NCBI GenBank assembly: GCA_016873115.1
Contig: VGYB01000007.1
Location: forward strand, 1-61,780
Direction: 5' to 3'
Origin: Planctomycetota bacterium
GTDB lineage: Bacteria; Planctomycetota; Phycisphaerae; Phycisphaerales; SM1A02
DNA: 61,780 nucleotides
Position 1 is the stretch's first letter; every line of letters begins with the position of its first letter. Made by a program: the position numbers and the translations under genes. The notes below the pieces were generated by a model. It saw only the letters and a list, made by a program, of their open reading frames with translations. It was not told where the DNA came from and searched no databases. Shown here one piece after another: positions 38,194 to 39,455 of this stretch.

Positions 38194-38751
38194 TCAGAGC
38201 GACCAGCTCAGGCCGATGTAGGCGCCAACGCTGTTCCGGCCGGGATTCTGTTCGTCCGTCCGGGCGTTGCTCTGGTGAAACCATTGCACGCCGAGCATGA
38301 GCGACGTTCCGGCATCGAGTTGATGGCGCACCCCCAGCCCTGCCCACGGGGTGAAGTTCGTGTCGCTCGTGTCGGCCGGGACCTCGCTCGTGGTGAACTG
38401 CACGCCGCAGCCGAGCTCACCGTAGACCGACCAGGTCTCTTGACGAAGGAAGTGCCAGCGGATGTCGAGTCCCACGCCACCCCCAGCGGCATCCTCGACC
38501 GGCTGCCAGACACCGATGCCACTGGCGTAAAGACCAAGTCCCAAGCCTTCGGCCACGAACCACGAATACTCCACGATTCCCTGCACATAGTCAGCACCAT
38601 CGAAATCGGAGCCAACGCCCGCAAGCACCGTCACGGCACTCGAGCCCTCCGCGCCGTACCGCAGGGCGGCCGCAGCCTCGAGGTCCTTCTCTTTCGGCAC
38701 TGGGTCGGTGCCGACCTCTGACGCAAGCACGAGCGCAAGGGCATCGATCAT
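38194..38751 (-). CDS. PagL-like acyloxyacyl hydrolase, outer membrane beta-barrel
   Basis: 185 residues. A short hydrophobic N-terminus is followed by alternating amphipathic strands and a C-terminal aromatic strand. The C-terminus FHQSNARTDEQNPGRNSVGAYIGLSWSL resembles the lipid A 3-O-deacylase PagL, where the His-x-Ser pair (here His159, Ser161) is catalytic. The acidic triad member of PagL has no obvious equivalent at the expected distance, so activity is uncertain. A remodelling enzyme for lipid A would fit the LPS genes in this window. The ATG has a -10 hexamer 7 nt upstream. Confidence 0.68.
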   Translation of the reverse strand: MIDALALVLASEVGTDPVPKEKDLEAAAALRYGAEGSSAVTVLAGVGSDFDGADYVQGIVEYSWFVAEGLGLGLYASGIGVWQPVEDAAGGGVGLDIRWHFLRQETWSVYGELGCGVQFTTSEVPADTSDTNFTPWAGLGVRHQLDAGTSLMLGVQWFHQSNARTDEQNPGRNSVGAYIGLSWSL

Positions 38752-38758
38752 GCCGCGG

Positions 38759-38764
38759 ACGCTA
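38759..38764 (-). promoter_or_regulatory. -10 element, leaderless-type, for the PagL-like gene
   Basis: TAGCGT, 7 nt before the ATG at 38751 and downstream of an intrinsic terminator on the same strand. Confidence 0.45.
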
Positions 38765-38813
38765 CCGGAGCACGCTCGGCTGGACTGAGTCGACCACGGC
38801 GGGGACCAAATGG

Positions 38814-38854
38814 AAAAACCGCCGTCCGAACGCTCCGACACGCTCGAACGGCGG
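38814..38854 (-). terminator. intrinsic terminator
   Basis: CCGCCGUUCGA-14 nt-UCGGACGGCGG on minus, with 11 pairs including one G-U, followed by UUUUU. This is the only hairpin with a clear U-tract I found in the window. Confidence 0.7.
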
Positions 38855-38886
38855 CATCACGGCCGGAAGGCCGCGAAGAAGTCTGA
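38814..38886 (-). ncRNA. candidate small RNA of about 73 nt
   Basis: On minus, a promoter-like pair is followed by two stable hairpins. The first has a 7-bp stem with a UUCC loop (CGCGGCC...GGCCGUG). The second has an 11-bp stem and ends in five U. No open frame of note lies inside. The PagL-like gene downstream has its own promoter-like element, so this looks like a separate short transcript rather than a leader. An attenuator remains possible. Confidence 0.45.
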
Positions 38887-38892
38887 ACCCGA

Positions 38893-38920
38893 AGTATCTA
38901 CGACGGCGATGCCCCGTCAA
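38893..38920 (-). promoter_or_regulatory. promoter for the candidate small RNA
   Basis: -35 TTGACG (38915-38920) and -10 GATACT (38893-38898) with 16-bp spacing on minus. It is among the closest matches to a classical sigma-70 pair in the window. Confidence 0.45.
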
Positions 38921-38994
38921 TGGGTGATGCGCAGCCGATTTCGTTGATTTTCCAAGTGGTTTTGCACATCAGCCCCCCGCCGCCAGCCTTGTCT

Positions 38995-39000
38995 GATAAT
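38995..39000 (+). promoter_or_regulatory. -10 element, leaderless-type, for the NUDIX gene
   Basis: GATAAT, preceded by T (extended TGATAAT), 8 nt before the GTG at 39009. Confidence 0.5.
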
Positions 39001-39008
39001 CTCGACTC

Positions 39009-39455
39009 GTGCCCTCCGCCATTGCCGCCGTTGCGATCGCCCGGAACGGTCCGGGTGGGTGCCCAGAGTGGCTGGTCGCCCGGCGACTTCCCTCCTCGAC
39101 ACTTGGCGACTACTGGGAGTGGCCCGGAGGCAAGGTCGAACCAGGCGAGTCCGCGGCTCAGGCAGCGGCGCGTGAACTGCTCGAGGAGGTCGGTGTGCGC
39201 ATCGCGGCGAAGGACCTTCGCGCCGTGGGTCCAACCATCCACGCCGGCCCACTCGCGCTGGATCTCTTCTGGACGATGGCGCCGCACGACGCGGCTCCCA
39301 GGGCGATCGGCTGTGCGCAGGTTCGCTGGGTCGAGTCGAGCGAGTTGTCCCAGCTGAGGTTCCCGCCTGCCAACGCGCCACTCACCGAGGGCATCGTGGC
39401 CCTTGACCGCGACCTGCGTTCAGGGTCGCCGCACGATCGACCGTTCACTTCGTGA
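39009..39455 (+). CDS. NUDIX hydrolase, MutT-like
   Basis: 148 residues. The complete Nudix box GX5EX7REUXEEXGU is at 41-63 (GKVEPGE...RELLEEVGV). WPGGKVEPGES and a following C-terminal strand pattern match MutT, which hydrolyses 8-oxo-dGTP to prevent mutation. Other nucleotide substrates are possible. The start is GTG with a -10 element 8 nt upstream. The gene ends inside a hairpin and overlaps the convergent lipoprotein gene by 11 bp. Confidence 0.88.
   Translation: MPSAIAAVAIARNGPGGCPEWLVARRLPSSTLGDYWEWPGGKVEPGESAAQAAARELLEEVGVRIAAKDLRAVGPTIHAGPLALDLFWTMAPHDAAPRAIGCAQVRWVESSELSQLRFPPANAPLTEGIVALDRDLRSGSPHDRPFTS

Follow-up and report, generated by a model that had tools for sequence, protein, structure and literature searches.

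A predicted small RNA gene with its own promoter and intrinsic terminator, conserved across the class Phycisphaerae

Features of the locus

We analyzed a stretch of 61,780 nucleotides from a planctomycete of the order Phycisphaerales (referred to here, at its full length, as the window). Its minus strand carries, between a divergent NUDIX gene and a PagL-like gene, the promoter-like motif TTGACG-16-GATACT followed by two hairpins and five U. All of these elements, described in the original prediction, are present where it placed them. The features of the locus are:

38937-38966, minus strand: upstream stretch kept among members of the genus; outside it, other genera have an inverted repeat that precedes the -35 element at constant spacing and is degenerate in this genus; possible regulator site
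38915-38920, minus strand: -35 element TTGACG; TTGAC recurs in 41 of the 56 copies from the order and in all 14 from the class families
38893-38898, minus strand: -10 element GATACT, 16 nt downstream of the -35 element
38814-38886, minus strand: predicted small RNA (sRNA) of about 73 nt; the start at 38886 is placed from the -10 element, and both ends are predicted from sequence
38857-38876, minus strand: hairpin 1; its 3' side and the linker read CCGTGGC in most families, CCGTGAT here
38818-38855, minus strand: terminator hairpin of 16 pairs (from sequence and fold)
38832-38838, minus strand: segment TCGGAGC of the terminator loop, almost invariant across the order
38814-38818, minus strand: U-tract TTTTT (from sequence)
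39009-39455, plus strand: NUDIX (MutT-type) gene, divergent, a conserved neighbour; TGATAAT immediately precedes its start in each of the seven same-genus loci
38194-38751, minus strand: PagL-like gene, downstream and outside the RNA; start taken as the ATG at 38751

The region 38790-38930 folds with -64.9 kcal/mol (z -2.86; 1 of 200 shuffles was equally good), and the RNA alone, taken as 74 nt, with -45.4 kcal/mol. Across the whole window there is a single promoter-like match, the one before the sRNA, and there are eight terminator-like matches, among which the sRNA terminator has 16 pairs and the next best 8. In line with the claim that this is the only clear U-tract terminator, no other match has a stem longer than 8 bp. 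In scans of 20 kb, shuffled sequence gave 1.4-1.5 promoter-like and 5.0-6.1 terminator-like matches per 20 kb, and the counts of bare motifs were not above chance; the weight therefore rests on the combination of the motifs and on their conservation.

Distribution, covariation and the terminator loop

No Rfam 15 family matched the window above the gathering cut-off, permissive scans gave chance-level matches only, and the loci of nine relatives yielded just one match, a tRNA. When 61 genomes were searched at the DNA level, the stretch was recovered from six of the eight other genomes of the genus (E 4e-51 to 6e-46), the two genomes without it (G001 and G002) being 74% and 81% complete and fragmented; other genera and family f4 yielded weaker hits in the terminator region. 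A first covariance model (R1), built from 21 sequences, matched 148 of the 301 order genomes searched, belonging to 77 of 147 genera (E <= 0.01). A few of these 148 are false, and about 130 carry one match, the others two or three. At the same threshold, 153 of the 301 genomes had no R1 match; these include six well-assembled genomes from the same family (G025, G104, G118, G163, G196 and G213; genera g18 and g53), in which the RNA has either been lost or diverged too far.

From 60 order loci we aligned 61 matches and kept 56 for the covariation analysis. The five that were dropped are L132, which by eye overlaps a tRNA-like stretch, L127, which was unclear, L136 and L137, which are hairpins after ssb, and L123, which has a long insertion and is probably real; it has TTGACC and a NUDIX neighbour. 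A partial antisense hit in L094 fell away once the cut-off was tightened. Among the 56 sequences, all 16 modelled pairs have changed on both sides, with 140 two-sided cells versus 31.2 (sd 8.2) in shuffles, none of 500 of which reached 140; the covariation score was 0.521, versus 0.208 after shuffling and no more than 0.144 when the partners were slid. Both measures are to be read knowing that the alignment was fitted to the structure, which favours covariation, and that relatedness inflates such counts. A covariance search across related genomes, the check proposed with the original prediction, thus found a conserved structure with strong covariation. These data also bear on the reading that the transcript codes for a very small protein, be it as a simple mRNA or as a dual-function RNA: over the 74 nt, two of its three frames have no stop codon, which is often the case in GC-rich DNA, but most of its length is taken up by hairpins that covary and change in sequence, leaving little room for conserved codons and making this reading extremely unlikely.

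While the terminator stem changes, TCGGAGC is found in all 56 aligned order copies. Since the model itself favours this sequence, seven other 7-mers served as a control in these loci: TCGGAGC lies inside a hairpin of at least 11 bp 52 times, the control 7-mers between 0 and 6 times.

A broader model (R2) matched 86 of 397 genomes in a search of the class and 12 of 294 in a search of the phylum (E <= 0.001). Among 20 further R2 loci, we accepted three from the order and 14 from the class families f11, f24, f26, f20, f8 and f15. The matches in G459, G797 and G847 were judged to be plain terminators and rejected as copies; those in G797 and G847 were the only matches outside the class. A search for the terminator-with-loop pattern in 84,980 species genomes returned 20 stretches, 17 of them titled as planctomycetes of some kind. 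The other three, titled Singulisphaera, uncultured bacterium and Vicinamibacteraceae, were taken to be G007, G008 and G047 of the window's genus or order. The resulting set of about 70 aligned copies is an alignment ready to become an RNA family. In 27 of 31 copies with a clear promoter (relatives and the window's own), the predicted RNA is about 75-97 nt long; these lengths come from 31 rows, promoter fits being poor for about half of the 61.

Promoter, upstream repeat and neighbouring genes

Both R1 and R2 exclude the promoter, so its recurrence is an independent check. The pattern TTGAC-N15..19-TA lies within 150 nt upstream of 40/56 order copies (versus 1.4 expected from shuffles) and of 14/14 class copies (versus 0.7 expected); it precedes none of the three rejected matches and one of the five dropped rows. 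The spacing between the -35 and -10 elements is 16 in 31 of 32 well-scored promoters.

Further upstream, an inverted repeat (CATAAGT-N15-ACTTACG) forms a clear element in 20 of the 30 promoters examined, and in 16 of these 20 it ends 22-24 nt before the -35 element. It is present in L080-L087, L091, L119 and others, and in other families in L173-L175 and L186; in the window's genus it is degenerate. Its score of 9.7 versus 8.1 in shuffled sequence is biased, because the consensus was drawn from the same sequences, whereas the fixed spacing is unbiased. In a wider search allowing one mismatch, the repeat matched in 87 of 121 genomes, with a reversed control scoring alike in many, and no regulator could be named at eight inspected repeat sites away from the sRNA. 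The repeat is possibly the site of a regulator.

The gene neighbourhood, with gene names taken from Pfam, is conserved on one side and varies on the other. A divergent NUDIX gene was found within 520 nt of 31/56 order copies, 3/3 further order copies and 5/6 f11 copies; none was detected beside 25/56 order copies and the other eight class copies. These counts are lower bounds, coming from tblastn with four NUDIX queries on contigs that are in part short. Together with the promoter, this neighbour recurs independently of the model, which speaks against an ordinary terminator or chance motifs, with the matches elsewhere being unrelated GC-rich terminators. Such a reading would account for raw motif counts that do not exceed shuffles and for those model matches that are plain terminators (G459, G797, G847), but the covariation and the 7-mer control also oppose it; it is already contradicted for the strong matches, and we give it next to no credence.

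On the downstream side, 19/56 order copies have a PagL-like gene no more than 600 nt away on the same strand, the window's among the loci with this arrangement, and nine have it further off. Other copies are followed by opposite-strand genes, namely a convergent pfkB-type kinase in 10/56 and a convergent CstA gene in 9/56, and 24/56 loci have no PagL match. Immediately before the genes that flank the sRNA in the window there are -10-like boxes, at 38759-38764 (minus strand) and 38995-39000 (plus strand), about 8-10 nt from the start codons. Both recur in 7/7 same-genus loci, as (A/G)GTAGCGTCC before the PagL-like ATG and as TGATAAT before the NUDIX start, which suggests that the mRNAs of the flanking genes are leaderless or nearly so, and makes plausible the earlier claim that the gene after the terminator has its own -10 element.

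The alternative raised in the original prediction, a 5' leader or attenuator whose terminator would be read through under some condition into the PagL-like gene, draws on the 19 copies with that gene close by on the same strand. The variable and often opposite-strand downstream genes argue against it, as do the box before the PagL-like ATG and the lack of a competing antiterminator fold in an unsystematic look, and we consider it very unlikely. A downstream gene that varies, with PagL often missing from the locus, is what one would expect of an independent gene. The proposal of a standalone RNA of about 73 nt between the NUDIX and PagL-like genes is upheld by the conserved structure, by its covariation and by a promoter outside the modelled region. 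The RNA has its own intrinsic terminator and, judged by recurrence in relatives, its own promoter, and is tied to no one downstream gene or strand. We conclude that the locus is almost certainly a standalone sRNA gene, with a predicted sigma-70-type promoter and an intrinsic terminator kept across the class Phycisphaerae.

In kind it is a bacterial intergenic sRNA, and within that known kind a new family. A literature search covering open journals turned up no description of this RNA, nor of any other sRNA from Phycisphaerae. For the PVC group, one sRNA count table has the figure 8 (PMC9029176). The Rhodopirellula-1 candidate motif, reported from planctomycetes and proteobacteria in a table row without an Rfam number (PMC2864571), is likewise a candidate structured RNA from planctomycetes, a likeness drawn from the taxon listing in that table and not from sequence. 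The sRNA is likely a new regulator in bacteria whose regulation has been little studied.

Possible mode of action

Beyond the order, the loop is kept to different degrees. In f11, GGAGC is retained in 6/6 copies and the full TCGGAGC in two; in f24, f26 and f20 the loop has changed and reads GTGGATGA; in f8 and f15 it is not kept, with other loops in its place. CCGTGGC, which covers the 3' side of hairpin 1 and the linker, is found in 14/14 class copies, and in 22 of the 56 order copies exactly or 35 with one mismatch allowed.

From the frozen loop we infer pairing. The RNA would be transcribed from its own promoter, possibly under a regulator bound upstream, and would act in trans without Hfq; the terminator loop UCGGAGC would pair with target mRNAs, as would the stretch that follows hairpin 1, which reads CCGUGGCGC in many families. 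That these two segments pair seems to us somewhat better than an even bet, and we put at roughly 60% the reading as a whole, namely a standalone, Hfq-independent regulatory sRNA that pairs through its loop and inter-hairpin segment. Sites complementary to a 10-mer of the loop showed no excess in nine genomes of the genus (49 versus 69 for the reversed control), and among the 30 of these 49 loci that were read there was no conserved match at a start site.

Hfq (PF17209) was found in 0/41 genomes, with 5/14 control genomes positive, which sets the RNA apart from Hfq-dependent sRNAs. To our knowledge, Helicobacter pylori is also without Hfq. For its sRNA RepG, the single-stranded terminator loop is the proposed contact site (PMC8295292), and this provides a precedent. 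Both are short intergenic sRNAs of bacteria that manage without the Hfq route, with a terminator loop as the proposed contact; however, the RepG loop is C/U-rich and binds G-repeats, whereas the loop here is UCGGAGC, and no sequence likeness is expected. The sRNA makes it testable whether a terminator loop is the contact site when Hfq is missing, and a class-wide RNA with a frozen loop would offer a handle on post-transcriptional control in mostly uncultured bacteria.

The loop could instead be contacted by a protein. Like the sRNAs of the CsrB/RsmZ type, the RNA carries GGA in a hairpin loop, and CsrA is present in nearly all genomes tested: 40 of the 41 searched for Hfq, 25 of which have two matches, and 30 of 31 further genomes. 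Its co-occurrence with the sRNA is uninformative, because CsrA occurs in almost all genomes, including those in which no copy of the sRNA was recognised. On this reading, the loop GGA would bind a CsrA-type protein, and the sRNA, joined in this genus by the ssb 3' hairpin, would titrate it. GGA is indeed kept in the loop throughout the order, and f24, f26 and f20 have GUGGAUGA; a hairpin after ssb bears the same TCGGAGC loop in 8/8 readable genomes of the genus, the window's own included (in the ninth, G001, the end of ssb was not readable). The only CsrA match in the window's genus is of a divergent kind, canonical CsrA being absent; this relative retains the PVHRSEV region, yet the loop is intact in a genus without the canonical protein. 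Conversely, f8 and f15 are without the loop, although G487, G543, G346 and G452 have CsrA.

The structure of the RNA also differs from that type, with one exposed GGA in the fold instead of several, a very long stem and no RUACARGGAUGU. According to PMC7652899, base-pairing sRNAs that bind CsrA have at least two GGA motifs, and SELEX ligands present RUACARGGAUGU on short stems. Moreover, the U and C before GGA and the GC after it are fixed too. We favour pairing over protein binding because of these fixed flanking bases, the long stem and the single exposed GGA, and regard a protein-binding RNA as unlikely.

The divergent CsrA-like gene lies at L231 (G000:C17:23488-23649), L232 and L234, beside or instead of canonical CsrA.

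A more speculative proposal, which we hold doubtful, joins the two kinds of hairpin: UCGGAGC hairpins might mark the RNAs recognised by a regulatory system that Phycisphaerae run without Hfq, in which the class-wide sRNA and the ssb 3' end of the genus would compete for one partner, either a protein or a shared target RNA. If true, such a system would link the sRNA with genes of DNA maintenance (ssb and the NUDIX/MutT neighbour). The ssb hairpins (L221-L223, L225-L228 and L230; in the window's own genome G000:C10, near 12484) have a stem sequence that differs from that of the sRNA, and a tail that reads CCTGTTATT or GTGTTATT.
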